Shown: positions 14,082-39,214 of the stretch, in pieces
Position numbering within the stretch: the stretch's first letter is position 1
How the letters are laid out: every line of letters begins with the position of its first letter
Made by a program: the position numbers and the translations under genes
From: an uncultured Pelagibacteraceae bacterium
GTDB lineage: Bacteria; Pseudomonadota; Alphaproteobacteria; Pelagibacterales; Pelagibacteraceae
DNA length: 50,818 nucleotides
NCBI GenBank assembly: GCA_902552035.1
Contig: CACDFC010000007.1
Coordinates: forward strand, 1 to 50,818
Direction: 5' to 3'
Notes under the pieces: generated by a model
Database searches by the model: none
What the model was told of the DNA's origin: nothing
The model's input: the letters and a program-made list of their open reading frames with translations, nothing else

Positions 14082-14110
14082 TTGACGCAGAATCTACGCT
14101 GGAGTCTAAT
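14082..14110 (+). promoter_or_regulatory. Predicted ccrM promoter with two GANTC sites
   Basis: A TTGACG element (14082-14087) is separated by 17 bases from TCTAAT (14105-14110), close to a sigma-70 -35/-10 pair. GAATC at 14090-14094 and GAGTC at 14102-14106 are both GANTC, the expected CcrM target; the second overlaps the -10. Transcription would start near 14117, leaving a leader of only about 7 bases before the ATG at 14124. Methylation feedback is inferred by analogy with other alphaproteobacteria. Confidence 0.6.
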
Positions 14111-14123
14111 TGTATTTTTAAAA

Positions 14124-15197
14124 ATGATTACAAAAAATCTTAATAATAAAATCATCAACGGAGATAGTCTTAAAGAATTAAAAAAAATTCCAGATGAAAC
14201 ATTCGACTTAATTTTTGCAGACCCACCCTATAATTTACAATTACAAAATAGTTTGATTAGACCCGACAGATCAAAAGTTAAAGCGGTAAATGAAAAATGG
14301 GACCAATTTGATAGCTTTAAGACATACGATAAATTTACGAATGACTGGTTAATCGAGTGTAAAAGAGTATTGAAGAAAAATGGATCAATTTGGGTGATTG
14401 GAAGCTATCATAATATATTTAGAGTTGGTAAAGCAATTCAAGATTTGGGCTTTTGGATTTTAAATGATGTAATCTGGAATAAAAACAATCCAATGCCAAA
14501 CTTCAGAGGTACCAGATTTACTAACGCCCATGAAACATTAATTTGGGCTTCTAAAAGTAAAAATTCAAAATATACTTTCAACTATCAATCAATGAAGTCA
14601 TTTAATGATGATTTACAAATGAGATCCACTTGGAATTTGCCGATATGTAATGGCAAAGAAAGATTAAAAAAAAATGGCATAAAAGTTCATTCAACACAAA
14701 AACCAGAATCGTTGCTTCATAGAATTATTTTAGCTTCTTCAAATAAAAATGATTTTATATTAGATCCTTTTTTAGGATCGGGAACAACAGCTGTAGTTTC
14801 TAAGAAACTAGATAGATCCTATTATGGAATTGAAAAAGAAAAAATATATTACGAAGCTGCTAAGAAAAGATTAAGAAGTACAAATGTAATTCAAAATGAA
14901 TATTTAGATACACTTCAAAATAATAAATCTAAACCTAGAATTCCTTTTGGTTCGTTGATTGAATTGGGAGTGATTAAACCTGGAATAGAAATTTATGATG
15001 GCAAGAAAGAAATTTATGCAAAGGTAATGGTTGATGGAAGTATCAAATATAAAAAAAATGAAGGATCAATCCATAAGGTAGCAGCTCAAATATTAGGATC
15101 TGAAAGTTGTAATGGTTGGACTTTTTGGCATTATCAGTCAGGTAATAGCTTAAAGCCAATTGATGATCTCAGACAACGTTTAAGACCAAAAAACTAG
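14124..15197 (+). CDS. ccrM: Cell-cycle-type adenine DNA methyltransferase CcrM (GANTC)
   Basis: Orphan N6-adenine methyltransferase of the beta class, which methylates GANTC and in alphaproteobacteria ties gene expression to replication. From the ATG at 14124 the protein has 357 residues: ADPPYNL near residues 32-38 (catalytic motif), HSTQKPESLLHR near 190-201, the SAM-binding DPFLGSGTTAVVS near 213-225, and a C-terminal RAMA-like domain (about residues 270-350, from IPFGSLIELG to the DDLRQRLR end). A TTG 42 bases upstream keeps the frame open but lies in the predicted -35, so I reject it as the start. The 3' end overlaps the next gene by 4 bases. Confidence 0.94.
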   Translation: MITKNLNNKIINGDSLKELKKIPDETFDLIFADPPYNLQLQNSLIRPDRSKVKAVNEKWDQFDSFKTYDKFTNDWLIECKRVLKKNGSIWVIGSYHNIFRVGKAIQDLGFWILNDVIWNKNNPMPNFRGTRFTNAHETLIWASKSKNSKYTFNYQSMKSFNDDLQMRSTWNLPICNGKERLKKNGIKVHSTQKPESLLHRIILASSNKNDFILDPFLGSGTTAVVSKKLDRSYYGIEKEKIYYEAAKKRLRSTNVIQNEYLDTLQNNKSKPRIPFGSLIELGVIKPGIEIYDGKKEIYAKVMVDGSIKYKKNEGSIHKVAAQILGSESCNGWTFWHYQSGNSLKPIDDLRQRLRPKN

Positions 15198-23299: not shown

Positions 23300-23352
23300 G
23301 TTATAATTATAATTTCTTTAATATTCCTATAAAAATAATATAAATTAGAAAA

Positions 23353-24813
23353 ATGAAATCACTTGTAATAGGTTCGGGTTTTGGGGGTATTGCGGCTGCT
23401 TTAAGATTAAGAGCCAAAGGTCATGATGTTACTTTGGTAGAAAAACATAAAGATTTAGGAGGAAGAGCAAGAGTTTTTAAAAAAAATGGTTTTATTTTTG
23501 ATGCAGGACCTACTGTTATTACTGCACCCTACTTAATTAATGAACTATTTGAGTTGTTTAATAAAAAGTCAGAAAACTACATTAATCTTAAACCATTAAA
23601 AACCTGGTACAGATTTATTTTTGATGATGGCTCAAAGTTTGACTATTCAGGAGATGAAGACTTAATGAAGAGGCAAATTGAAATGGTGAGCAAAGACGAC
23701 ATGAAAGGATATGAGGAGTTAGTAAAATTTACTAAAAAAATATTCGATAAAGGATTTATGGAGCTTTCAGATATTTCCTTTGATAGGCCATTCACTATGT
23801 TGAAGCAATTACCCGCTTTACTAAAACTAAAAAGTTATAAATCAGTTTATTCATTAGTCTCCTCATATGTTAAAAATGAAAAATTAAGACGAATGCTTAG
23901 TATGCATCCATTACTAGTTGGGGGAAATCCTTTCACAACAACATCGATATATGGATTAATTTTATATTTAGAAAAAAAATGGGGTATCCATTATTCGATG
24001 GGTGGAACTGGTAATATTATTAAAGGACTTGAAAAATTAATGGAGGAAGAAAAAATAGAAATTATCAAGGGTAATGAAGCTACAAAAATAGAATCTTTAA
24101 GCAATAAAATAATTAGTGTTAAACTAGATAATCAAAAAGAAATTAATGTTGATAATGTTATATGCAATGCTGACCCACCATCTGTTTATGAAAAACTTTT
24201 AGAAAATAAAAAAGTTAGTATGATATTTGAGTGGAAAAAAAAAAGAATGCAATACTCAATGGGTTTGTTTGTCTACTATTTTGGTACAAAAAAGACGTAT
24301 GATGATGTTGAACATCACACAATAAAATTTGGTGAAAAATATAAAGAACATCTTGATGATATTTTCAACAAAAAAAAATTAAATAATGATATAAGTTATT
24401 ACTTACATAGACCTTCCGCAACAGATAGCTCTATGGCTCCTGATGGAAATGATTGTTTTTATGTTTTAGTGCCAGTACCAAATAATCAATCAAAAATTGA
24501 TTGGTCTATCGAGGGAGAAAAAATTAAAAATCTAGTAATTGATAAAATGGAAAAAGATTTAATGCCAAATCTTCGTAAAAATATTATTGAAGATTTCTAT
24601 TTGACACCTGATTACTTCGAAAAAGATCTCAATACTAAATATGGTTCAGGCTTTTCTATTCAACCAAAATTTTCACAATCAGCCTATTTTAGATTTCATA
24701 ACAAATCAGAGATATATGATGGTCTTTATTTTGTTGGCGCAGGAACACATCCAGGTGCTGGTATTCCCGGAGTATTATCTTCTGCTAAAGTATTAGATAA
24801 AATTTTACAATGA
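23353..24813 (+). CDS. crtI: Phytoene desaturase
   Basis: FAD enzyme converting phytoene to lycopene. The 486 residues begin with a dinucleotide motif (VIGSGFGGIAAALRLRAKGH near 5-24) followed by KDLGGRARVF near 38-47 and FDAGPTVIT near 50-58. The C-terminal FAD motif with GLYFVGAGTHPGAGIPGVL (about 457-475) is the bacterial carotenoid dehydrogenase signature. First gene of crtI-crtB-crtY-blh, 53 bases after atpF with an A+T-rich gap that may hold a promoter. It overlaps crtB by 4 bases. Confidence 0.96.
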   Translation: MKSLVIGSGFGGIAAALRLRAKGHDVTLVEKHKDLGGRARVFKKNGFIFDAGPTVITAPYLINELFELFNKKSENYINLKPLKTWYRFIFDDGSKFDYSGDEDLMKRQIEMVSKDDMKGYEELVKFTKKIFDKGFMELSDISFDRPFTMLKQLPALLKLKSYKSVYSLVSSYVKNEKLRRMLSMHPLLVGGNPFTTTSIYGLILYLEKKWGIHYSMGGTGNIIKGLEKLMEEEKIEIIKGNEATKIESLSNKIISVKLDNQKEINVDNVICNADPPSVYEKLLENKKVSMIFEWKKKRMQYSMGLFVYYFGTKKTYDDVEHHTIKFGEKYKEHLDDIFNKKKLNNDISYYLHRPSATDSSMAPDGNDCFYVLVPVPNNQSKIDWSIEGEKIKNLVIDKMEKDLMPNLRKNIIEDFYLTPDYFEKDLNTKYGSGFSIQPKFSQSAYFRFHNKSEIYDGLYFVGAGTHPGAGIPGVLSSAKVLDKILQ

Positions 24814-25661
24814 GAAACAAAAACTACCTTTCAATTTATGCAAGGTCATTTAATTGGGCAGGTTTTTTTTTACCTAAAAAAACTTATTTAAATTGTTCTT
24901 CACTTTATGATTTTTGCAGAACAATTGACAACATCGCTGACAATAATGATGTTTTAGAAAATAAAAAAAAAAATTTATTAAATTTTCGAAATAATTTTAA
25001 TAATAGAGATTACAGTGACAGTGTAATTAAAAATATGTGGTATTTAATAGATGAATTCAAAATTTCTACAAAAATTGTCAATGATTTAATTGATGGTGCA
25101 GAATCTGATTTAAAAGAAAAGGTCGAAATAAATTCTCAAAAAGAATTATTGATTTACTCATATAGGGTCGCTGGAACAGTTGGTTTGATGATGGCAAAAA
25201 TTTTAAATGTTAAAAATAGAGATGCTCTAAAATCTGCAATTGATTTAGGTATTGCCATGCAATTAACAAATATATCTCGAGATATAATCGAAGATGCAAG
25301 TAATAATAGATTTTATATACCCTCAGACTTTAATTCTATAAGAGAGACTTTAAAGCTTGCCGATCAGTTTTATAAAAGTTCATTTTCATCAATCAATAAA
25401 ATACCTATTAGTTTTCGTTTTGCTATATTAGTTGCAAGGAGAGTTTATAGAGAAATTGGTTATAATATCCTTAAGAAAAAAAATATTGAAAATTATAAAA
25501 GATCTGGAAAAATTTATGTAAATGATATGTCTAAAGTCTTTCAAACATTTCTTTCAATTTATGACTTTATTAATCTTTTAATGATTAAATCAAATGAACA
25601 CTCAAGAGATAAAGAACACTTAATAATAAATGAGGAAATAAATCTTAATGACAGATTTTGA
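24810..25661 (+). CDS. crtB: Phytoene synthase
   Basis: Condenses two geranylgeranyl diphosphates into phytoene. The 283 residues carry the first aspartate-rich motif as CRTIDNIAD near residues 36-44, the YRVAGTVGLMM block near 117-127, and the second aspartate-rich NISRDIIEDA near 153-162. Length is typical of bacterial enzymes. It overlaps crtI by 4 and crtY by 14 bases, which implies tight coupling. Confidence 0.95.
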   Translation: MRNKNYLSIYARSFNWAGFFLPKKTYLNCSSLYDFCRTIDNIADNNDVLENKKKNLLNFRNNFNNRDYSDSVIKNMWYLIDEFKISTKIVNDLIDGAESDLKEKVEINSQKELLIYSYRVAGTVGLMMAKILNVKNRDALKSAIDLGIAMQLTNISRDIIEDASNNRFYIPSDFNSIRETLKLADQFYKSSFSSINKIPISFRFAILVARRVYREIGYNILKKKNIENYKRSGKIYVNDMSKVFQTFLSIYDFINLLMIKSNEHSRDKEHLIINEEINLNDRF

Positions 25662-26718
25662 TTATATAATTATTGGTGGAGGTTGTGCGGGATTATCTTT
25701 GGCTTATGAACTTCAAATTCATAATAAATTAGAAAATAAAACTTTAGCAATCATTGAACCGAGAACTGAATATAAAAAAGATAGAACCTGGTCTTTTTGG
25801 AAAGTCATATCTCATAATTTTGACGACTGTGTTGAAAAAGATTGGGAGAATTTTTCAATTAATATTTCCTCAGATACAAATTACTTAGAATGTAATCAAT
25901 ATCCCTATCAAAGTATCAATAGTGGTAAATTTTATAAAAAAATAAATGCAAAACTAAAAGAGAATGAAAATATTAAGTTCTTCAAAGATATTAATGAGGT
26001 GAGTACTAAAAATTCTTTCATATTTAATAGTGTACCATCATCCATTAAGTCTGATGAAAATAATTTGTGGCAACATTTCTGTGGAATTGAAATTGAAACT
26101 AAAAATAATATTTTTGATGATAGTATAATAAATTTAATGGATTTTGACTGTGAGCAAAAAAATAGTGTTCATTTTTTTTATACTCTACCCTATTCCAAAA
26201 ATAAAGCACTAATAGAAACTACGTGGCTATCGAACATGTCTAATGAAGAAAAAGATTATGATAAACAACTTAAAAACTATATTGAAAATAATTTAAATAT
26301 TAAAAATTATAATATAATTTATAAAGAGGTGGGTGCAATTCCTCTTTTTTATCCCTCAAATTCAAATGAAAAAAATAAAATAGATATTGGAACTGCTGGA
26401 GGAATGACAAGATTAAGTACTGGATATACATTTTTAAATATCCAGGAGCATAGTAAATACCTGAGAGAGAATATTGATAATGTTCATAAAATTAAAAAAT
26501 TTGAAATAAGAAAAAAATATCAAGTTTTAGATAAAATATTTCTTCAGGTTTTGAAAAAAAATTCTAAAAAGATGCCCTCTGTATTTTTTAAAATGTTTAA
26601 ATGTTCTCCAAAGACTGTTATAAAATTCCTATCTAACAAAAGTAATTTTTTTGAGGATTTGGCTGTTATTTTAAAAATGCCTAAATGGATTTTTATCAAG
26701 GCACTTTTTAGAAAGTAA
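25648..26718 (+). CDS. crtY: Lycopene beta-cyclase (CrtY type)
   Basis: Flavoprotein cyclising lycopene to beta-carotene. The 356 residues start with the FAD motif IIIGGGCAGLSLAYEL near 7-22, then a DRTWSFW block near 46-52, and the GTAGGMTRLSTGYTFLNIQ block near 249-267 that is typical of CrtY. It follows crtB with a 14-base overlap and precedes blh by 1 base, so beta-carotene is the expected intermediate for retinal. Confidence 0.93.
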   Translation: MTDFDYIIIGGGCAGLSLAYELQIHNKLENKTLAIIEPRTEYKKDRTWSFWKVISHNFDDCVEKDWENFSINISSDTNYLECNQYPYQSINSGKFYKKINAKLKENENIKFFKDINEVSTKNSFIFNSVPSSIKSDENNLWQHFCGIEIETKNNIFDDSIINLMDFDCEQKNSVHFFYTLPYSKNKALIETTWLSNMSNEEKDYDKQLKNYIENNLNIKNYNIIYKEVGAIPLFYPSNSNEKNKIDIGTAGGMTRLSTGYTFLNIQEHSKYLRENIDNVHKIKKFEIRKKYQVLDKIFLQVLKKNSKKMPSVFFKMFKCSPKTVIKFLSNKSNFFEDLAVILKMPKWIFIKALFRK

Positions 26719-26719
26719 A

Positions 26720-27622
26720 ATGATAAAAAAAATAAATTTTTTTCATTCATTAATTTTTTTTAATACATGTATTTTTATTTCTTCAATTAATTACCTGAAT
26801 GATAACAACCTAATAGTTCTTTGTTTATTTTTGATACTTACAGTTGGAATTTCTCATGGATCCTTGGATAATTTAAAAGGTAAGATACTTTTAAGATCAA
26901 GAAATATTAAATCAATTTCTATTTTTTATATTGGATATGTTATTTTAAGTATATTTGTTATTTTATTTTGGATGCTATTTCCATCCTTGTTATTCACAAT
27001 ATTTTTATTAGTTGCATCTTATCATTTTGGAAAGGAAGATAGTGATTTTATCCACAAAAATAAAAATAATAAAATTGAAATATTATTTTTTTTTAAAGGT
27101 TCATCAATTATTTTTGCTCCACTATTATTTCATAAAGAGGAAACAATTGAAATTTTCGACTTTTTAAATTTTGAAATATCAAATATTTTTTTGCTAGAAA
27201 GCAATATTTTAATTTTACTTTTAATCATTTCATTTGTGGCAACTTTATTATTATCTTCAAAAAAAAATTATGAATTAAAGTTACTATTATTAATGGATTA
27301 CTTTTCAATATTGATAATTAATTATTTTTTAAATCCAATTTTAGCGTTCACTATTTATTTTTGTTTTTTACATTCCATTAGACATTCATTGTCATTAATT
27401 TTTCAATTAAATAGAAGCTTTAACAAAGGTTTTAAAGCTTTTATTAAAAAAGCTATGCCATTAACCATAGTAACTGCAATAATTTACTTATTCTCTCTAT
27501 TTTTTTTGAATAATTACTTAGAATTAAATGATGCTATTTATAAGGTAATTTTTATTGGTTTGGCGTCTTTAACCTTTCCACATATATTGCTTGAATATTT
27601 AGTCGAAAAAAATGAAAAATAA
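26720..27622 (+). CDS. blh: Beta-carotene 15,15'-dioxygenase, Brp/Blh family
   Basis: Membrane enzyme cleaving beta-carotene into two retinals. The 300 residues contain about eight hydrophobic segments. Histidines expected to bind iron lie in GISHGSLDN near residues 43-51, SYHFGKEDS near 100-108, FLHSIRHSL near 214-222, and FPHILLEY near 289-296. It completes the retinal pathway; a proteorhodopsin gene is not in the window. Its last codons overlap the start of the small membrane protein at 27612. Confidence 0.93.
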   Translation: MIKKINFFHSLIFFNTCIFISSINYLNDNNLIVLCLFLILTVGISHGSLDNLKGKILLRSRNIKSISIFYIGYVILSIFVILFWMLFPSLLFTIFLLVASYHFGKEDSDFIHKNKNNKIEILFFFKGSSIIFAPLLFHKEETIEIFDFLNFEISNIFLLESNILILLLIISFVATLLLSSKKNYELKLLLLMDYFSILIINYFLNPILAFTIYFCFLHSIRHSLSLIFQLNRSFNKGFKAFIKKAMPLTIVTAIIYLFSLFFLNNYLELNDAIYKVIFIGLASLTFPHILLEYLVEKNEK

Positions 27623-30219: not shown

Positions 30220-30251
30220 GGTTCGGGGCACCTGGCAACAGAACGCCCCTT
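30220..30251. repeat. Left boundary repeat with pseudoknot potential (attL-like)
   Basis: Contains ACAGAACGCCCCTT (30238-30251), identical to 39201-39214. GTTC (30221-30224) can pair with GAAC (30241-30244), and GGGGC (30225-30229) with GCCCC (30245-30249), forming an H-type pseudoknot. The right copy can form the same two stems with a shorter loop. Confidence 0.65.
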
Positions 30252-30293
30252 ATTAAAGGATTCCCTTATCCATACTCAATTTCCAAAAATAAA

Positions 30294-30326
30294 GTTCAAT
30301 GAAGGTTCAATGAAGATTCAATGAAG
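30294..30326. repeat. Three tandem 11-bp repeats, left arm-type sites
   Basis: GTTCAATGAAG occurs at 30294-30304 and 30305-30315, and ATTCAATGAAG at 30316-30326. The core TTCAATGAA is a near-palindrome. An 11-bp period puts the copies on one face of the helix. Related copies lie inside the right end at 39086-39153. Confidence 0.75.
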
Positions 30327-30348
30327 TTTGAAAACAGTGAAATAACTT

Positions 30349-30522
30349 TTACTTCTTATTTTTTATTTTAAAACCTTGAGACTCAAGTACTTTGATCAAA
30401 TTTTTTAACTTTTGCTCTCGAGATGTGTTTGAATCCCCTATTTTTTCAAAAAAAATTGGTTTTAAACCTCTATCTTTTTTTGATTTAAAATAGTTTTTTA
30501 GTGATTGTATTTTTAGTTTCAT
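30349..30522 (-). CDS. Small basic protein, unknown function
   Basis: A 57-residue minus-strand frame with a good ribosome-binding site (AAAGGAGA just upstream of the ATG at 30522). The product is lysine-rich and probably helical, beginning MKLKIQSLKNYFKSKKDRG and ending in KIKNKK. It has no membrane segment and no family I recognise. It lies between the left arm-type repeats and the first plus-strand island gene, where an excisionase or regulator could be expected, but the sequence does not prove that. Small phage or island DNA-binding proteins are the alternative I would test. Confidence 0.45.
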   Translation of the reverse strand: MKLKIQSLKNYFKSKKDRGLKPIFFEKIGDSNTSREQKLKNLIKVLESQGFKIKNKK

Positions 30523-30677
30523 TTTTCTCCTTTAGCGTTTTGTTTATAGTCCTAGCAAGTAAAGTTTTTTAAATCAGGACTAATTTAATTCTAACAAATC
30601 TACAAATTTTTGCCACTATTATTCAATAATATAAAAATTGTTAAAGTTAATTTTCAAAACTTTAATAACTCCAAAAT

Positions 30678-31010
30678 ATGCAACAACAAGAACTATTTGA
30701 TTTCAGAAGAGATGTTCTCTTTGAAAAAGATAATCAAATCGCTCGTTTTTATGATGTCCTTAGTGAAACTAAAGACGGAATAAGTTATGCTGAACATATA
30801 GACCCCAAAAAAAAATTTTCTATATGTGGTATGGATTATGAAGAGTATGTTGATGTTAAAAAGAAATACTTAAAGGGTTTGACTTATGATCAAATACTCA
30901 ACTACTTAATGAAATTTAAGAAGGAAGAGAGATTAGAAAAATATAAAATTTTACTTAAATTTAGAAATATACCTTTTGATGCTGATTTATTCACTTGGAA
31001 CAGCGATTAA
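30678..31010 (+). CDS. Hypothetical island protein
   Basis: A 110-residue protein with no family I recognise. The N-terminal half is acidic and polar; the C-terminal half is helical and lysine-rich (KKKYLKGLTYDQILNYLMKF near 62-81). A GLTYDQI turn between helices could be a helix-turn-helix-like element, but this is weak. No signal or membrane segment is present. The A+T-rich upstream region contains an AGTCCT/AGGACT inverted repeat (30548-30553 and 30576-30581). It lies 117 bases upstream of the nuclease gene in the same direction, so a role as its regulator or partner is plausible but unproven. Confidence 0.65.
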   Translation: MQQQELFDFRRDVLFEKDNQIARFYDVLSETKDGISYAEHIDPKKKFSICGMDYEEYVDVKKKYLKGLTYDQILNYLMKFKKEERLEKYKILLKFRNIPFDADLFTWNSD

Positions 31011-31024
31011 TTAAATTTTGACCG

Positions 31025-31093
31025 TTATACTCGCATTTGCGCGTATAACATTCGCAAATAATTAGTTTACTTTTTAACTGTATTTGCGAGTAT
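31025..31093. promoter_or_regulatory. Cluster of inverted repeats before the nuclease gene
   Basis: The 117-bp gap holds overlapping palindromes: TTATAC/GTATAA with CGC/GCG inside (31025-31048), ATTTGCG (31035-31041) against CGCAAAT (31053-31059), and ATACTCGCA (31027-31035) against TGCGAGTAT (31085-31093). The pairings are mutually exclusive. This could be an operator array or a switching leader RNA for the downstream nuclease gene. Confidence 0.5.
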
Positions 31094-31127
31094 TTTAGTC
31101 TTCTGCTAAGATTTTGGTAAATTTGTT

Positions 31128-32126
31128 ATGAAGTTTACCGAAATAGATAAAAAAAATTTTTTTTTACAAATAGAAAAACTAAAATCTGTACAAGCAGAAT
31201 TTTTAAAAAAATACAATGTTGATGATATTTTAAGTAATAGTAAAATATTTGAAATTTTAATTGCTAATGAATTATCACATATACTTATTCCAGGTCACTC
31301 AGGTTCGAGGGATGCTAGAGATAATGAAAATAATGTTTATGAATATAAACATTTTAAAGAAACAAGTTCTAACCATTCTTGGACTTTTAATGATTTTAGT
31401 GACACTACAATAAATAAACTAATTGATACTAAATCAATAATATTTGCTCATATTGATGATACTCAAAGTATCTCAAATAAGTTTATATTAGATTGGTATT
31501 ATGAAGTCAGTGGAAAAACAATGTCAATTTATTTAACTGAAAAAGTTAAAAGCATAAAGAATACAAGAAAAATGATAAATGTAAGTCCAAACCAAATTGA
31601 AAAAAATTTGAGTATTTTTAAAACTAATTTAAAAAATGAAAATACAAATGGATCGTACTATAAAGATTTAGAAAAAATATATAATATAATTAAAGAATTA
31701 GAAAAAATTTCTAATGTGAAAAATATTTTAACTTCAAATAAAATATGGGAAGTTATTACTTCAGTACATTTAAATCATAATGTAAATTCCGAGCAAGGTG
31801 GCAGAAAAGGATCTCATGATGCCTATGACAAATTAGGGAACCAATATGAATATAAAATATCAAAAACAAAAAGTTGGAATTTTCAAGATATAAGCGAAAA
31901 TGTTCTTAATAAATATCAAAATATTAAATTTTTTATTTTAGCAGTCAAAGATCCATTTAATATTTCTGTAAAAAAGATATTTTTAGTTAACAAGGGTCTT
32001 ATTGAAAGAATAAGAGAAAAACTTAATAAAAAAATAAGTAAAAAAGGTTTATTAAGAAGATTACAGGTAAGTGCATCTTATAGTGATATTAAAAAGTTTA
32101 TAGTTAAAGAAATAGAAATTAATTAA
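31128..32126 (+). CDS. Restriction-endonuclease-like protein with two tandem PD-(D/E)XK-like halves
   Basis: A 332-residue protein in which residues about 36-135 and 203-292 are clearly related. Each half has an early glutamate (KIFEI at 39-43, KIWEV at 205-209), then a DAxD element (62-65 and 231-234) followed by YEYK (71-74 and 240-243), then an SW-x-F segment. The D...ExK spacing fits a PD-(D/E)XK nuclease core in each half, offset by 169 residues. With two DNA methyltransferase genes next to it, convergent and 2 bases away, the likely role is a type II-like restriction enzyme in which one chain supplies both active sites. I do not recognise a named enzyme or its target. Confidence 0.7.
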   Translation: MKFTEIDKKNFFLQIEKLKSVQAEFLKKYNVDDILSNSKIFEILIANELSHILIPGHSGSRDARDNENNVYEYKHFKETSSNHSWTFNDFSDTTINKLIDTKSIIFAHIDDTQSISNKFILDWYYEVSGKTMSIYLTEKVKSIKNTRKMINVSPNQIEKNLSIFKTNLKNENTNGSYYKDLEKIYNIIKELEKISNVKNILTSNKIWEVITSVHLNHNVNSEQGGRKGSHDAYDKLGNQYEYKISKTKSWNFQDISENVLNKYQNIKFFILAVKDPFNISVKKIFLVNKGLIERIREKLNKKISKKGLLRRLQVSASYSDIKKFIVKEIEIN

Positions 32127-32128
32127 AT

Positions 32129-32908
32129 TTATCTCAATCTCTTTTTTGATAATTTAAAATATTCTTTATTTTTTTCTACTGCATAAAAAAATCTGCCATT
32201 TTTTTTTGCAGATACTGCTGTAGTTCCAGATCCACAAAAAGGGTCTAGAATTATATCTTTTTTTTTTGTGCAACCTATTATTAATCTATCTAATAATTCT
32301 AACGGTTTTTGAGAAGGGTGTTTTCCATATCTTTTTTCTTTTACTGAAGTCATTGGAATGTCCCACATATTTCTCATTTGTTTTTTATTTTCTGTTAACA
32401 TTTTCATTTCTTTATAATTAAATACCCAATTCTTTGCTTTTTTTTTGTTATTGTTTACAAACCAAATCATCTGTTCAGTACTTTCGCATAACATTCTTTG
32501 TGTAATATTTGGAAAAGCATTTCTTTTATACCAAATTATTGAATTAATTATTCTAAGTTTAAGACTATCAATAATGAAACCTAATTTGTAAATATTATGA
32601 TAAGTTCCAAATATAATTATATTTCCATTATCTTTTGTAACTCTGCAAACCTCTTTAATAAAATCTTTGCAAAACTCAAAATATTCATCATCATTAAAAA
32701 CATCCCATTCTTCATTAATTTTAAAAAATTTTTTATTTTTTTTCCAAGTTTCATTTGATTTATACCATCCAATTTCTTTTTTATTTTCATAATTTGAAAT
32801 ATTATATGGTGGATCAGTTATACAATGATCAAAAATGTTGTCTGGCAATTTTTTTAAATGAGATAAACAATCTTCATTAATTAAAACATTTTTAATTTTT
32901 TTTTTCAT
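32129..32908 (-). CDS. DNA adenine/cytosine-N4 methyltransferase, beta-class
   Basis: A 259-residue amino-methyltransferase with the catalytic TDPPYNIS at residues 31-38 before the SAM motif DPFCGSGTTA at about 222-231, the beta-class order also used by CcrM and HinfI-type enzymes. HPSQKPLELLDR lies near 197-208. Unlike CcrM it has no RAMA tail and ends at KKRLR. It is the last gene of the minus-strand island operon, 5 bases after the second methyltransferase and tail to tail with the nuclease gene. It probably protects one strand or half of the restriction target; the target sequence cannot be read off. Confidence 0.88.
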   Translation of the reverse strand: MKKKIKNVLINEDCLSHLKKLPDNIFDHCITDPPYNISNYENKKEIGWYKSNETWKKNKKFFKINEEWDVFNDDEYFEFCKDFIKEVCRVTKDNGNIIIFGTYHNIYKLGFIIDSLKLRIINSIIWYKRNAFPNITQRMLCESTEQMIWFVNNNKKKAKNWVFNYKEMKMLTENKKQMRNMWDIPMTSVKEKRYGKHPSQKPLELLDRLIIGCTKKKDIILDPFCGSGTTAVSAKKNGRFFYAVEKNKEYFKLSKKRLR

Positions 32909-32913
32909 ATTGA

Positions 32914-34536
32914 CTACCTGAAATTAGGGAATTCCTCTTTAAGGATTTCAACTATAATTTTAGAATTATTAATCTTATATAGTAAATTCTTTTCAAAAAG
33001 TACTTTTATTAGACCATTATCATACAATTCCCCTAATGAAGGTTTCTTGTTTGATTCTAGATAATTTTGAACAAAATTTTTAACTTCTGTTTTTATTTCT
33101 TCCTTATCAACTTTAATTTTTTTATCTAATAAACTAATATTTACCTTTTTATTATTGTTATCATTTTTGCTAAAAAAAAATAAACAATCCCCTGTAACTG
33201 TTGTGTCTGGTGTAGTATTTTGTTTATAGGTATATTTGCTTTTGCCTACATGAAGTGATCTGATAAAATTAAATCCAGCATTTTTCATTATACATAAGAA
33301 GTAATGAATATTTACAGGTTTGCTATCTTTAAAAAATACAATTGCTAAAGCATTTGATTTAAGTTTTTTATTAATTAGATTAAATGCATCTGTTAAACTA
33401 TCTAAATAGTCTTTTAAATTTTTTTTATTAACTAATCTATTTGAAACTACTATTTCATCTTTAAAATTAGTTTTAAAATTACAAAAGTATTCCCAAACTT
33501 TTAAATATTCTGAGTATGCTACTTGATCGTAGTAAGGAGGATCTGTTATCAAAATATCTACACTTTGATCGGGTATATCTTTGTTTGTTATCTTTTGTAT
33601 GGGTTTATTTAAAATATATATATTTTTTCCTGATTTTGATAATTCACTAAAATTTTTTGTTTTGATTAAATTTAAATTATTTTTGTCTTTATTTTTTATT
33701 AATTCTTCAATTTTTCTGTAAATTAAATTTAGTATATTTCTCTCAACAATATTTTTTTTTGGTACCCAATAAGGAAATTGGGATTGTGATTTAGCGTCTG
33801 TCAATCTGCATAAGTGTAAGATTGATGCTAGTATTGTCATCATAACTCTATTTTTTTTAAATTTTTTACCAAACTCAGATAAAACAAAAAAATTTATTGG
33901 ATTAAATATCGTAGATAATTTCATATTTTTTTTAACTGCAATTCTAGAGTTATGAATTAATTTTAAGTCAATATTTTTAATTTTATTTTTGCAATAATTA
34001 AAATTTTCAAAATATATTTCATTATTTTTTAAAAATTTTTTTTGATTATTTCTTTTTAATAAAAAAGATTTAATTCCATTTTCTAAATGAAATTCTTTGA
34101 TATTAATTTCATTATCTTTTACACAATCAAATATTATTTTTTTTAATTGAATTTTTTCATCATAAATTGGACTATAATATTCATAAAATTTTTTAAAATC
34201 TCTATAAAAACTTATAAAATCTTTTTTAATATTTTGAAGTTCATCTTTGGAAAAATTTTTTATATTAAAATCAATAAAAGATAATGGCATTTCATTTATT
34301 TCTGTACCAATAAATTTTAAATCTGTTTTATTTGCATCAATGCTAAATAAAATTGGGGCAGAACCTAGAAATGGGTCAAAAATTGTTTGGTTTGGTTCAA
34401 CAAAATGATCAAGGATACTCGATAATACTATTGGATTTTTTTTTGACCAATAAAAAGATACAATGTCTTTTTTTAAAATACTTTGATTATCTATTTTAAA
34501 ATTTTTAATCTTTTTGTTTAAAATTGCATATTTCAT
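32914..34536 (-). CDS. Second DNA methyltransferase, motif I first, DPPY central
   Basis: A 540-residue amino-methyltransferase with the SAM motif FDPFLGSAP near residues 53-61 and the catalytic TDPPYYDQVAYSEY near 331-344. This order and the DPPYYDQVAYSEY block recall the DUF1156/COG1743 group, although that group is usually longer. A CRLTDAKSQSQFPYW block (about 243-257) and a TPDTTVTGDC block (about 455) are probably structural or target-linked. The long middle region (about 95-300) likely recognises DNA. It lies 31 bases after the helicase gene and 5 before the first methyltransferase, so all three are probably cotranscribed. Confidence 0.85.
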   Translation of the reverse strand: MKYAILNKKIKNFKIDNQSILKKDIVSFYWSKKNPIVLSSILDHFVEPNQTIFDPFLGSAPILFSIDANKTDLKFIGTEINEMPLSFIDFNIKNFSKDELQNIKKDFISFYRDFKKFYEYYSPIYDEKIQLKKIIFDCVKDNEINIKEFHLENGIKSFLLKRNNQKKFLKNNEIYFENFNYCKNKIKNIDLKLIHNSRIAVKKNMKLSTIFNPINFFVLSEFGKKFKKNRVMMTILASILHLCRLTDAKSQSQFPYWVPKKNIVERNILNLIYRKIEELIKNKDKNNLNLIKTKNFSELSKSGKNIYILNKPIQKITNKDIPDQSVDILITDPPYYDQVAYSEYLKVWEYFCNFKTNFKDEIVVSNRLVNKKNLKDYLDSLTDAFNLINKKLKSNALAIVFFKDSKPVNIHYFLCIMKNAGFNFIRSLHVGKSKYTYKQNTTPDTTVTGDCLFFFSKNDNNNKKVNISLLDKKIKVDKEEIKTEVKNFVQNYLESNKKPSLGELYDNGLIKVLFEKNLLYKINNSKIIVEILKEEFPNFR

Positions 34537-34567
34537 ATCTATTTAAAATAAAATACATGATTAGCAA

Positions 34568-37500
34568 TTAATTACACTTTAAATTAATAAATTTAAAAAA
34601 GTTATTCATTAATTTAATATGATCTAAATTTTTAGGTGAACTGTCTAATAATTGCGGATTAAAAAGTATTATTGAAGCAACCTGTGCTCTAGAAATTGCA
34701 ACATTTAATCTATTTCTGCTAAAAAAGAATTCTTTATTTCTGGGTAAGGAATCATTGTCAGAAGAAGTCATTGAAATGATAGTTATTGGTGCTTCTTGAC
34801 CTTGAAATTTATCAATAGTACCCACTCTAGGGTTTTTAATCTTTGATTCTTCTAATTTAGAAATTAAAAGATTAACCTGCGTATTATAAGGACTAATAAT
34901 CAGAAAATCATCAACATTTAATTTTCTTTTTTTACCATTGTCATCAAATTCACTTCCTATTAGTTGTTGCATTAAATCTTTTACAACTTCAAACTCTTCA
35001 ATACTTGTTTGAACATTATTTTTATGATCCATTTGGATATAGTGAATTCCATGTTTTTTAATTAAAGATTTTTTTTCAAATTTGATTATTCTCTTATCTG
35101 TTCTTTCATCACAGATTAATCTATCTTCATAAAAATTTGATGAAATAAATTCATTTATCTTTGAATTTAATCTATAAGTTTTATTTAAAAATATTCCTCT
35201 ATCTTCTGGAATTGTATCTTTCCCCTCTAAAAGATAATCTAAAATTGATTGACCAGATTCATTAGGATGTGTTCCTCTTATTGGTTGTCCTAATTGATTT
35301 TGATCTCCTATCAAAACTATATTTTTTGCTATATTACCTGTGCTTATTAAATCTGCCAAACTTACCTGACCTGCTTCATCTATAAAAAGATAATCAATTT
35401 TTTCATCATAAAATGAACTTGCTAAATGATATTTAGTTCCTGCAAATATTTGACCTACATTATCTTCTTTCAAAGCATCCATGAAAACAGGGTCTTTTTC
35501 GTATGTTTTAATAAATTCTCCCTTAAAAATAGTATCCTCATCTTCTAAGTTTCCTCTTTTATAACCTACAAAGTTAAATTGTTTTTCTTTTGCCATATCT
35601 TCAATTCTTTGAAGCAAGTTATGAATTACTTTGTGAGATAAACCTGTAATTGCAATCTTTTTATTTTGTTTTAACAATTCTATGATTGCATTAGATGCTT
35701 GGAAAGTTTTGCCAGTTCCTGGTGGTCCTTGAATGTAAATAAAACTATCTTCTAAATTAGAAATAATTTTTGGAATTTCTTTACTAAAATTATCTGATTT
35801 AACAATTTTTTCCCCATTTTTAATTCCTTTAATATTTGGATGTTTCTTTTCTAGAAAGTCATTTAATGCTTTATATTTTTTCTCATTATTAATTAATGTG
35901 TCTATGAATTTATAAGTATTAGAAATGAGTTTGGTATTCGGTCTAGGTTTATCAGGACCTATTGATAATATTTGTGGTAAAATACCTTGAGATTTTCCTC
36001 TCTTCAATAAAAGTTCTTTCTTTTTGTAATCAATGTCTATTATTGTTCCTGCATAATCATTTTGTTCAATATCTTGATTGTTTGCGATAACGGTTTTCTT
36101 ACTTTTTCTTAACTTAAAATCTTGGTCTTCAAATTTATATGAATATAGTAATGATCTCTTATCAGTAGTAGGTTCACCATTTGACTTCATGTTTCCTATA
36201 CATTCAGGATCATCAATTAATTCTTCATCAGATTTTGATCGTCTATCAAAAAACTCTCTCCATGCAGGTTTATCTTCACGATTATAAAAACCAATGATGT
36301 CTGACATCAATTGTTTAATTTGTTTGTTTTGAATTTTAGATTTTTCAACTTTTTCTTGGTAAGTAATCATATCTACCTCCCAATCTCTTAACTCCATTTC
36401 ATTATCTTTTTTTTGTGAAACAAACCAAGATGATTCTGAAGGTTTGATGTCTAACAACCATCTATGAAGTTGGTAAGTAGAATCACAATCTTGTTTATTA
36501 TAACTTTCTATCTCATCTAAAAAGTTTTGATCCTGAGTTTCTAACCATTCTATATAGTATTCTTGGGATGCATCTCCTCTTTGAACATCACCTTCTCTTT
36601 TAAATTCATAAAATTTTTCAATATTTTTAAGTGAATAACTATTTTCTGATATGAAAAGTCCTTGTCTATTTACTTCTAATAAATTTACAAATTTGTTTAA
36701 GTTTAAATAGTGATCATACTCAATACCTTTTACTTTATGAAATGAAGTTAGTTTTAATAATGCAGTAATTTCATATGAACCATAATGATAAATTTTTGAG
36801 TTTGGATACTTTTTAAAATGAGATTTAGTAAAATCAAAAAATTTAATTAAGTTTTTCTTTTCATCTTCTTTGTTATGAGACCATAATGCTTTAAATTTCT
36901 CCTTACCATTTTCAATATAATAAATTCCAAGTAAGTATTCTAAACCACCAGAATAGATATGATCTTCAACGCTTTCTATATCAAAATATAAATCACATTC
37001 TGATGGTTCAGGTAATAAGTTAAAACCCTTAATACCATTTAAATTATTTGGATTTGGTTGGTGAATTGGAACATTTGTTTTTTCATATTCCTTTTGAAGT
37101 TTTGCTTGTGTGATTAATCTTTGTGAAATTTCTTTTCTAAAACCTTTAAGAATTTTATCAGGATTTTGTTTTGAGAGTTTATTTGCTGTATCAATTTTAA
37201 GTTCTAGCAGTTTTTTTAAATGTACCTTAGTTAATCCACCAACTTGATTTAAATTATCTTCTTTAATCCAAATTTTTTCACACTCTTCTTGCCATTCACA
37301 AGTACTACAAAAACTACATCTTTCAGGTTTTTGTTTATCTACTCCATTACCAACAAATTTCTCATAATTTTCCCTATGAATTTTAAAAAACTCATTAACT
37401 TGATTAACCTGAACATTTTCCCTAACCATATCTTTTAAAACAATAGTAAATCTTTTTGGAAGAACGCCCTGAGTGTTCTCCAACATATAAGTGTACATAC

Positions 37501-37936
37501 CTAATTGAATAATATGGTCAGGTTTTGGTTTATTTGAATACTTTGTATCAATTACTTCATAACTATAATCACCAAATTTTGATTTAAGTTCTTTATTAAT
37601 TATTAAAAAATCAAACTCCCCAGTCCATTTATCTTTCTTTAACCAACCACCATGAATAATATCCCAACCCTCTTTCATTGCCTGAATTGTTTTTGAGATT
37701 TTTTCCTCTCGTGTTAAATCGGGTTTTTTTAAATCCAATACTTTCTTGTGTTTCTTTTTAAGTTCTTTTAAATAATTTTTTTCATGTTGATTACCTTTTT
37801 CAAATCTTAATTTGTCATTAATATTAAGTTCGATTTTTTTAAGATTTAATTTTTTTTCATTAATTTCATTAAAAATTATATACTTACAACCCAAGTACTT
37901 TTTAAGCATAGTGGGTGAAAAAAGATTTTTTGACAT
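34568..37936 (-). CDS. RecB-like nuclease / RNase H-like / SF1 helicase fusion (TM0106-type)
   Basis: An 1122-residue protein with three parts. Residues 1-225 resemble a Cas4/RecB-type nuclease: GEFDFL (106-111), EVIDTK (127-132), QLGMYTY (144-150), and cysteines C17, C207, C210, C213 and C219 that could hold an Fe-S cluster. Residues about 312-500 look like a YprB-type RNase H-like exonuclease (FDIES at 318-322; YNKQDC at 489-494). Residues about 700-1122 are a UPF1/Dna2-like superfamily 1 helicase: GPPGTGKT (737-744), DEAG (853-856), GDQNQ (877-881), SPYNTQ (1015-1020), IDKFQGQE (1041-1048) and LNVAISRA (1077-1084). It likely unwinds and degrades DNA. The 5' gene neighbour is 3 bases away. 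Confidence 0.88.
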   Translation of the reverse strand: MSKNLFSPTMLKKYLGCKYIIFNEINEKKLNLKKIELNINDKLRFEKGNQHEKNYLKELKKKHKKVLDLKKPDLTREEKISKTIQAMKEGWDIIHGGWLKKDKWTGEFDFLIINKELKSKFGDYSYEVIDTKYSNKPKPDHIIQLGMYTYMLENTQGVLPKRFTIVLKDMVRENVQVNQVNEFFKIHRENYEKFVGNGVDKQKPERCSFCSTCEWQEECEKIWIKEDNLNQVGGLTKVHLKKLLELKIDTANKLSKQNPDKILKGFRKEISQRLITQAKLQKEYEKTNVPIHQPNPNNLNGIKGFNLLPEPSECDLYFDIESVEDHIYSGGLEYLLGIYYIENGKEKFKALWSHNKEDEKKNLIKFFDFTKSHFKKYPNSKIYHYGSYEITALLKLTSFHKVKGIEYDHYLNLNKFVNLLEVNRQGLFISENSYSLKNIEKFYEFKREGDVQRGDASQEYYIEWLETQDQNFLDEIESYNKQDCDSTYQLHRWLLDIKPSESSWFVSQKKDNEMELRDWEVDMITYQEKVEKSKIQNKQIKQLMSDIIGFYNREDKPAWREFFDRRSKSDEELIDDPECIGNMKSNGEPTTDKRSLLYSYKFEDQDFKLRKSKKTVIANNQDIEQNDYAGTIIDIDYKKKELLLKRGKSQGILPQILSIGPDKPRPNTKLISNTYKFIDTLINNEKKYKALNDFLEKKHPNIKGIKNGEKIVKSDNFSKEIPKIISNLEDSFIYIQGPPGTGKTFQASNAIIELLKQNKKIAITGLSHKVIHNLLQRIEDMAKEKQFNFVGYKRGNLEDEDTIFKGEFIKTYEKDPVFMDALKEDNVGQIFAGTKYHLASSFYDEKIDYLFIDEAGQVSLADLISTGNIAKNIVLIGDQNQLGQPIRGTHPNESGQSILDYLLEGKDTIPEDRGIFLNKTYRLNSKINEFISSNFYEDRLICDERTDKRIIKFEKKSLIKKHGIHYIQMDHKNNVQTSIEEFEVVKDLMQQLIGSEFDDNGKKRKLNVDDFLIISPYNTQVNLLISKLEESKIKNPRVGTIDKFQGQEAPITIISMTSSDNDSLPRNKEFFFSRNRLNVAISRAQVASIILFNPQLLDSSPKNLDHIKLMNNFFKFINLKCN

Positions 37937-37939
37937 TAT

Positions 37940-38461
37940 TTAATTTTCTAACAAATTCCAGTTATTGTGATATTTACTCCATTTTCTTCTCCAACCACAC
38001 CAGTAATGATCTTTACTCTCTTGTAAAAATAACGCTCTATGAGAAGTAATTTTTCTTTTTGTACCATCGCGTTTTTTTCCTTTATGATAAACTTCATTTG
38101 ATTGTTTTAATTCTTTACTTACTATTTGGGTTGGAATAATAAAATACTCTTGAACCTTACCTTCTCTCACCCCACAAAGAATAACAAAATCATCTTTATT
38201 TTTCTCATCTAAATCTAGAAATATTTCACCATTTTTTTTTGCGTTATATTGAATTGTGCCAAAATCATTATTCCACAAACTATATGACTTAACTCTTAAT
38301 AATCTCTTTTTATTTTTTTTTACGGCGAATAAATCGTAAACAGCAGCATTTTGAATATTTGAATTAAAGTTTCCCACTAACCAATCTCTACCTGTAAGTT
38401 CTAATTCAACTGAAAGTTCACCAATACGACCAACGGATTGTGCGCTTTTACCTTGTGTCAT
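37940..38461 (-). CDS. Small PD-(D/E)XK-like protein
   Basis: A 173-residue protein whose first 60 residues resemble a PD-(D/E)XK core: GRIGELSVELEL with E15, then YDLFAV with D43, then LLRVKSY with K58. The usual E or Q two residues before the lysine is an arginine (R56) here, so the active site is atypical. The C-terminal half has a KRDGTKRKI basic stretch and several tryptophans, perhaps binding DNA. It overlaps the GIY-YIG gene by 1 base and lies 3 bases before the helicase gene. It may be a nuclease or a catalytically dead targeting subunit; I recognise no named family. Confidence 0.65.
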   Translation of the reverse strand: MTQGKSAQSVGRIGELSVELELTGRDWLVGNFNSNIQNAAVYDLFAVKKNKKRLLRVKSYSLWNNDFGTIQYNAKKNGEIFLDLDEKNKDDFVILCGVREGKVQEYFIIPTQIVSKELKQSNEVYHKGKKRDGTKRKITSHRALFLQESKDHYWCGWRRKWSKYHNNWNLLEN

Positions 38462-39066
38462 TACTCATATTCTCTTCGCAACTCTGACATTGTCTTTCCG
38501 TTATAACTCCACCATATTGGTCCTTGAACTGCTGCCCAGTCATAACCCATATCTCTTAAAACAATATCTGCAGCATCTGATAATGATGTGATTTTATCTC
38601 TAAACTTTACTTTTGTATCATCATGAATTTCACAGGTAATTGTCTTATCTTTTACAAATTCTAAGATTGTACCTGGTTTTAAATTAATCATGTCAAAATT
38701 AAATTTTTTTCTAATTTTTCTAGCATTTTCTAGTGCCTGCTTATCCTGAGGTGTTTCAACAATATCATCAGCAGGAGTAACATTTTTACCTCCCATGACC
38801 TCTGCTATTTCTAAAATTGCTTTTGCTTGTTCGGGTGTTGAATTAAAAAATTCTCTGTTTTGTCTTATTCTTTTATCATCTAAACCCTCATGAATTTTTT
38901 TTTCAATAACCTTCGCGTCTTGAACTTCAACTGCATAGTAACATTCAAATGGAAGCGGTGTAGATGTGTTATCCAACTCCTTCATTCTTCTTTCAAGGTT
39001 ATCTGTAATGCCAATTTTAATCGTATCAGGCATCGATTGATTTGTTAAAATATAAACTATTTTCAT
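38461..39066 (-). CDS. GIY-YIG nuclease (T5orf172/MUG113-like) with RAMA-like domain
   Basis: A 201-residue two-domain protein. Residues 1-85 are GIY-YIG-like in the T5orf172/MUG113 style: VYIL (4-7), IKIGIT (16-21), RR (26-27), EKKIH (55-59) and NREFF (70-74). Residues about 129-198 (LKPGTIL, SLSDAADIVL, WWSYNGKTMSELRR) match the pattern of the RAMA domain at the end of CcrM in this same window (KPG start, a helix after the basic strand, a W-x-x-NG-type end and a final DLR/ELR). RAMA domains are predicted readers of modified DNA. First gene of the five-gene minus-strand island operon; its promoter region holds the right-hand repeats. Confidence 0.75.
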   Translation of the reverse strand: MKIVYILTNQSMPDTIKIGITDNLERRMKELDNTSTPLPFECYYAVEVQDAKVIEKKIHEGLDDKRIRQNREFFNSTPEQAKAILEIAEVMGGKNVTPADDIVETPQDKQALENARKIRKKFNFDMINLKPGTILEFVKDKTITCEIHDDTKVKFRDKITSLSDAADIVLRDMGYDWAAVQGPIWWSYNGKTMSELRREYE

Positions 39067-39085
39067 GAATATAATTTTACCCCAA

Positions 39086-39153
39086 TTCTCAATGAAGTCT
39101 AGAAACGGGGTTTTTGAAAAAAGGTCAAACTTTCAATGAAATCTTCAATGAAG
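39086..39153. repeat. TTCAATGAA-type repeats, right arm-type sites
   Basis: TTCTCAATGAAG (39086-39097, imperfect), TTTCAATGAAA (39131-39141) and CTTCAATGAAG (39143-39153) match the tandem repeats of the left end. They sit between the operon start at 39066 and the right boundary repeat, at about the same distance from the boundary as on the left. They may be integrase arm sites or operators of the operon. Confidence 0.65.
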
Positions 39154-39186
39154 TACTTAAATAACCTAGGTATTTTGGCATGATTT

Positions 39187-39214
39187 GGTTCTCGGGGGAC
39201 ACAGAACGCCCCTT
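39187..39214. repeat. Right boundary repeat with pseudoknot potential (attR-like)
   Basis: ACAGAACGCCCCTT (39201-39214) repeats 30238-30251 exactly and ends at the base before the thrC stop codon (39215-39217). GTTCT (39188-39192) can pair with AGAAC (39203-39207), and the G run at 39194-39198 with CCCC (39209-39212). On the thrC strand the structure would begin 2 bases after the stop codon. Confidence 0.65.

Follow-up and report, generated by a model that had tools for sequence, protein, structure and literature searches.

The DNA examined here (the window) is a 50,818-nucleotide stretch from an uncultured Pelagibacteraceae bacterium (contig CACDFC010000007.1 of assembly GCA_902552035.1), and it contains a single open reading frame (ORF) for a 332-residue putative restriction endonuclease (positions 31128-32126, plus strand, ATG start) that adjoins two genes encoding methyltransferases. 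Judged by the ORF, by alignment and by predicted fold, the nuclease is best explained, with a probability of about 0.78, as part of a mobile Type II restriction-modification system in which a natural single-chain pseudo-dimer of two PvuII-fold halves probably cuts an asymmetric site. Under this scheme, the two halves would derive from one duplication or fusion and be arranged like the subunits of the PvuII homodimer, with each half contributing one complete active site and cutting one strand of DNA. The diverged halves would most likely read different half-sites, making the full site asymmetric, and the two adjoining methyltransferases would each protect one strand, the pairing of enzyme with strand being one that we infer.

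Two homologous halves in a single chain

The comparison covers 12 loci, namely the window, L010 and L014-L023, 10 of which encode a protein of full or almost full length. L010 is without its N-terminus at a contig end; L020 is damaged, and was excluded from every alignment and tree; L023 is cut by a contig end, and was excluded from the tests on halves and from the tree. The alignment prepared for display omitted near-copies and others (L014, L021, L025-L027, Gluconobacter and Saccharobesus).

The nuclease consists of two homologous halves in one chain, as a preliminary description of this DNA had claimed. Local alignment of residues 1-165 with residues 166-332 gives a score of 152, as compared to a mean of 39.6 (standard deviation 7.1) and a maximum of 72 in 2,000 shuffles of the window halves, and for nine of nine relatives the observed score was reached in none of 1,000 shuffles. 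In addition, profiles of the N-terminal halves (N-halves) and C-terminal halves (C-halves), each made from 10 sequences with hhalign retaining eight of the 10 N rows, match one another at P = 5e-16 over 132 columns with 30% identity. This match marks out approximately residues 175-332 (31650-32123, plus strand) as a second PvuII-like PD-(D/E)XK domain, the first being residues 1-153 (31128-31586, plus strand), which is placed by the model and by an hhalign match to PvuII orthologues at P = 3e-7.

The putative active sites, assigned by alignment, are D62, E72 and K74 in the N-half (31311-31313, 31341-31343 and 31347-31349, together spanning 31311-31349 on the plus strand), and D231, E241 and K243 in the C-half (31818-31820, 31848-31850 and 31854-31856, spanning 31818-31856 on the same strand). 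The first triad is identical in all 11 alignment rows that reach it, the second in 10 of 10, and both are unchanged in all 10 sequences that span both halves, the window included. Both triads align with the DAVD...ELK of PvuII. The shared elements on which the preliminary description relied can all be found, in the form of E42/E208, D62-A-x-D65/D231-A-x-D234, Y71EYK74/Y240EYK243 and S84W85-x-F87/S249W250-x-F252. However, the offset of 169 residues given for them applies to DAxD and YEYK, and is 166 at the early E and 165 at SW-x-F, due to small insertions and deletions. The DAxD element, while present in both halves, is weaker than it had seemed, as the second D of the N-half is replaced by Asn in two of 11 rows (L016 and L018). 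The early E, conserved in N-halves and C-halves alike, is aligned with a Gln of PvuII.

Predicted fold and ancestry of the halves

Structure prediction, which had been suggested as a check, was carried out on the whole chain with AlphaFold2 (10 sequences, L010 left out), and yielded a model with a predicted local distance difference test score (pLDDT) of 87 and a predicted template modelling score of 0.84. The fold of this model is of the PvuII PD-(D/E)XK type. For instance, the top Foldseek matches are both chains of 3ksk, an engineered single-chain PvuII, at E = 1.1e-13 and 1.9e-13 (template modelling scores 0.62-0.68, ~332 columns), with native PvuII structures ranked directly after them. 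With VIA, 3ksk and the model align at Z = 20.8 over 299 residues (model 4-332 on chain 2-319), followed by native PvuII at Z = 12.8, aligned to model residues 172-331, and then by NhoI and Eco15I at Z = 9.7 and 9.4, both below PvuII. Because the fold match covers nearly the whole chain, the domains and their arrangement would both resemble the PvuII dimer.

A similar placement is suggested by the family sequence profile, for which 3ksk is the first match in the PDB (E = 5e-6), each copy alone being weak at an i-E of ~0.35. Three of 11 members match PF09225 Endonuc-PvuII (best E = 1.2e-6), the window protein itself having no match, and three of 11 match the PADLOC model PDLC03536 (best 2.3e-7), which PvuII itself matches at 8e-70. 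NCBIfam, searched with all 11 members, returned five families, each matched by one member, the best being a hypothetical protein (3.6e-5), and PHROGs returned weak matches of unknown function. The best match in a viral fold search has E = 1.5e-5 with a template modelling score of 0.24.

Single-chain PvuII was reportedly engineered by Simoncsits and colleagues in 2001. The window enzyme shares the overall arrangement of that protein, but the latter is man-made from PvuII subunits, whereas the former is natural, with halves that are ~30% identical. PvuII proper (Type IIP, CAG^CTG; native structures 1pvu, 1f0o and others) has in common with the window enzyme the fold of each half, the D-(x)9-ExK active site and a distant kinship in sequence; it is, however, a homodimer of 157-residue subunits with one domain per chain, as opposed to two diverged domains in one chain with two methyltransferase activities next door. 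One paper (PMC3850674) describes gene fusions that arose naturally among PvuII-type enzymes, but these join the enzyme to its C regulator and it must still dimerise, whereas the window chain joins one nuclease half to another.

The relationships among the halves were addressed with a tree of 30 rows, in which the 10 N-halves form one group (support 97/98), the 10 C-halves a separate group (83/96), and seven single-domain proteins of viral contigs and three PvuII orthologues two further groups. Identities range from 38 to 59% among N-halves and from 34 to 52% among C-halves (five close pairs left out). As N-halves and C-halves group separately, the simplest reading is that a single duplication or fusion probably came before the family spread. 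The single-domain proteins found in viral contigs (L011-L013 and L024-L031, with L024-L026 being the contigs of L012, L013 and L011 over again) are PvuII-like and ~140-150 residues long, and no methyltransferase was recognised by eye near those of L011-L013. One of them, modelled over 139 residues at a pLDDT of 85, has native PvuII as its first fold match (E = 1.4e-6), and such proteins could resemble the ancestral homodimer.

Partner methyltransferases and the recognition site

Convergent with the nuclease gene, with 2 nucleotides between the stop codons, lies a gene for a 259-residue CcrM-like methyltransferase (32129-32908, minus strand; PF01555 at E = 1e-46, CcrM in the PDB at E = 1e-45) that carries the motif DPPYNI. 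It is followed by a gene for a 540-residue methyltransferase (32914-34536, minus strand) with the motifs DPFLGSAP...DPPYYD, a distant DPPY enzyme that matches PF01555 at E = 1.6e-9. A homologue of the 540-residue enzyme is present and convergent with the nuclease in all 11 loci that have downstream sequence (the window, L010 and L014-L022), separated from it in L010 and L022 by two further genes. In the nine loci for which the distance was computed, the stop codons of nuclease and methyltransferase are at most 21 nucleotides apart or overlap by up to 35 nucleotides.

The second partner varies. In seven of the 11 loci it is CcrM-like, either as a separate protein (window, L014, L019 and L021) or fused (L015, L016 and L020), the CcrM-like domain of the three fused proteins having the variant DCFLGSGT. 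In the other four (L010, L017, L018 and L022) it is a D12-class domain fused in front, typed by Pfam for L010 and L017, by 94% identity to the L010 enzyme for L022, and for L018 by a match limited to residues 352-964, its contig being cut short. DPPY motifs are found in both methyltransferase domains wherever both are complete. A table of identities showed no pattern linking either half to the swapping of the second methyltransferase. It is an even bet, in our estimation, that an ancient duplication let the halves of a PvuII scaffold learn different half-sites, which would have made a cutter of palindromes into one of asymmetric sites, and that protection is modular, with the 540-residue methyltransferase kept constant and the partner for the opposite strand swapped between the CcrM-like and D12 classes, which are unrelated. 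Two features appear to be new, namely the natural pseudo-dimer of homologous PvuII-fold halves and the swapping of the second methyltransferase; a natural two-half PvuII is not described in the titles and abstracts listed by searches of the open-licence PMC literature, with REBASE sequences outside the comparison.

Type IIT enzymes recognise an asymmetric sequence and cut inside it or very near one of its sides. They are described, in the accessible part of a review (PMC4081073), as having two different catalytic sites, as being heterodimeric or single-chain, and as generally accompanied by two methyltransferases, separate or fused. On sequence grounds the window system fits this kind, as it combines two non-identical halves bearing unchanged D/ExK triads with two methyltransferases, separate in the window and fused in some relatives. 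The predicted fold, the intact triads and the conserved linkage back the preliminary description in its proposal that one chain carries both active sites and is accompanied by two methyltransferases. Single-chain members named in the same part of the review (PMC4081073), namely Mva1269I, BtsCI, AciI, BsrI, BssSI and BsrBI, share the one chain, the two catalytic sites and the two methyltransferases, separate or fused. Of these, Mva1269I is described in the text available as joining EcoRI-like and FokI-like domains, unlike the homologous halves found here, while BtsCI, AciI, BsrI, BssSI and BsrBI were compared by description. BmgBI is a further single-chain enzyme. The Type IIT heterodimers BbvCI and Bpu10I have two related subunits with one catalytic site each and an asymmetric site (accessible parts of PMC4081073 and PMC6326814), but are encoded by two genes, whereas a single ORF is found in the window and in eight intact relatives, L010 being open at its start. 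The likening to BbvCI made at the outset holds as analogy but not as kinship, since the predicted nuclease fold is that of PvuII and BbvCI is compared with NgoMIV in the portion of PMC6326814 available. NgoMIV is not among the VIA matches listed for the model.

The residues that might read bases differ between the halves. All 11 N-halves have N88-D89 and all 10 C-halves have Q253-D254; R310 is also unchanged in 10 of 10, the aligned N-half residue 146 being variable. These pairs align with PvuII H84-H85, N88-D89 by hhalign and Q253-D254 by HMMER, and neither half has a His opposite H84 or H85 in either of the two alignment registers obtained. His85 of PvuII belongs to the base-reading segment. 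A contact of His84 in that segment is described in the available text of PMC4705667. As differing invariants in the two halves would point to different half-sites, the recognition site is probably asymmetric, with one methyltransferase per strand.

Were the half-sites instead equal, the enzyme would act as a joined PvuII-type nuclease on a site that is palindromic or nearly so, with methyltransferases that overlap or serve different purposes, an explanation we regard as unlikely. The engineered 3ksk shows that the architecture fits a palindrome, and single-chain PvuII works as a monomer according to the accessible part of PMC3857828; moreover, the two halves agree at W, F and D in the W-x-F-x-D segment. 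The asymmetric site is favoured by the half-specific differences of N88 versus Q253, N37-S38 versus S203-N204, and R310 versus the variable residue 146, by the separate grouping of N-halves and C-halves in the tree, and by the retention of two methyltransferase domains where both are visible, when one methyltransferase suffices for a palindrome. Nonetheless, several points count against the asymmetric pseudo-dimer. Two methyltransferases could also serve a near-palindromic site, and motif-I patterns that fit the other enzymes gave no hit in the 540-like domain of any of the three fused proteins. The residue register also shifts by one in MAFFT, which puts N88-D89 and Q253-D254 opposite H83-H84, and thus D89-F90 and D254-I255 opposite H84-H85. 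The most divergent C-halves, at 34% identity, are little above the 30% seen between halves, and so are almost as far apart from one another as N-halves are from C-halves; this divergence and the register shift make a palindromic site somewhat likelier and an asymmetric one somewhat less so. Support for the C-half group is under the 95/80 star, and the program warned that long branches meet. The link to PvuII emerges only through the family profile or through the model, since the window nuclease alone has no useful match, whether in Pfam (DUF1128 at E = 0.61, far below the cut-off), in NCBIfam and PADLOC (no match at E up to 5), or among PDB sequences (nothing useful at E up to 10). PF22522 DUF6998 matches more members than PF09225, although more weakly (four of 11, best 4e-4), and the C-half matches the PvuII orthologue profile, made of four rows including one with stops, weakly by hhalign (P = 9e-4).

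Two further explanations concern how the enzyme would act. That the enzyme is a relative of NhoI and Eco15I, directed by methylation (Type IIM-like) and cutting foreign methylated DNA, is very improbable in our view. NhoI and Eco15I (8rpx and 8q5o, solved with methylated targets according to their titles) do share a related fold in the fold search, and mREase_II, the PADLOC model for methyl-directed restriction, is weakly matched by two of 11 members (best 5e-5), which tells against the pseudo-dimer reading as well. However, the matches to PvuII are the stronger ones in each of the two fold searches, and the tight convergent linkage to DPPY methyltransferases in 11 of 11 testable loci argues against methyl-dependence, as methyltransferases adjoining a methyl-directed nuclease would leave the host open to attack by that nuclease. 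It is also rather improbable that one half alone is catalytic in practice, so that the enzyme nicks, or that a dimer of the single chain acts on two sites. Strand preference and nicked intermediates of Type IIT enzymes are noted in the accessible part of the review (PMC4081073), and a BbvCI tetramer, together with a tethered single-chain BbvCI active with the longest linker, in that of PMC6326814. Yet neither triad varies in any of the 10 rows that span the two, unlike a decaying second site.

Distribution, mobility and neighbourhood of the system

Relatives of the nuclease are spread over four phyla. A pattern scan with a two-sequence profile, which sets a lower bound, found at least 10 loci (L014-L023) in the genome collection, from Pelagibacteraceae, Cytophagales, Bacteroidetes, Clostridia, Erysipelotrichaceae, Lachnospiraceae, Ruminococcus, Prochlorococcus and Synechococcaceae, with the Pelagibacteraceae relative (L014, AG-905-M18) being 94% identical. 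The phage collection gave one relative (L010, MT836948.1; 40% identity) and the plasmid collection none, and viral contigs had none by a scan with the single protein or by one with alignment A3. The two-half family is rare in taxonomic samples, at one in 397 genomes for the order and one in 398 for the phylum, in each case the window's own genome, which was also the only convincing match in a class sample of 289 genomes. Two matches from the class search (G094 at E = 1.4e-3 and G241 at 6e-3) were judged to be chance, the ORFs there resembling other genes by eye.

At L020:8977-10258, the Cytophagales nuclease gene is broken between its halves by a short, mobile-element-like insert with inverted-repeat ends, and the adjoining methyltransferase gene remains open. 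A split-gene, heterodimeric version at this locus was considered and rejected in favour of a damaged gene. In the case of L010, labelled as phage, three proteins are 84-94% identical to those of a Lachnospiraceae contig, and thus the record may be a bacterial mobile island rather than a phage. L010 and L022 both have an extra helix-turn-helix gene and a 797-residue methyltransferase-like protein, that of L010 having a C-terminal Mrr_cat domain.

The restriction-modification cassette moves as a unit by horizontal transfer. Positions 30225-34541 are 93.7% identical to AG-905-M18, as compared to 71-73% for the flanking syntenic stretches, and a further shared stretch of 139 bp (39076-39214) is 95.7% identical. 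Two flanking genes look by eye like rnhA and thrC; 38 of 60 other genomes of the genus have both on a single contig, with a gap of 5-2,511 bp as opposed to 9,117 bp in the window and 5,586 bp in L014, indicating that the cassette was inserted.

Upstream of the nuclease, an ORF of 110 codons (30678-31010, plus strand) is unlikely to belong to the core system, since L014 alone among 11 other loci compared has it. Between this ORF and the nuclease (31028-31100), an inverted, repeated motif around TACTCGCA/TGCGAGTA was seen by eye, and is a possible operator or terminator. Beyond the methyltransferases, positions 34568-39132 encode a RecB-like nuclease of the TM0106 type that has RNase H and superfamily 1 helicase domains, a 173-residue protein with no Pfam match and a 223-residue protein, none of which is present in the L014 island. 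The RecB-like helicase (34568-37936) was accordingly dropped as a candidate component, the L014 cassette being without it. Elsewhere in the window, a separate gene at 14082-15194 has the appearance of a CcrM-type orphan methyltransferase, and genes at 23344-27622 resemble those of a carotenoid and retinal pathway, both by eye.

The window nuclease would be a natural counterpart of the engineered joined PvuII, in which nature apparently fused the subunits and the halves then diverged. If so, single-domain relatives, PvuII homodimers and fused, diverged halves would form a natural series for addressing how a symmetric enzyme becomes an asymmetric one, and the system would allow one to ask how a pair of methyltransferases with separate origins came to act on a common site. 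A mutation in either triad should, in turn, yield strand-specific nicking enzymes on a small and well-studied scaffold.
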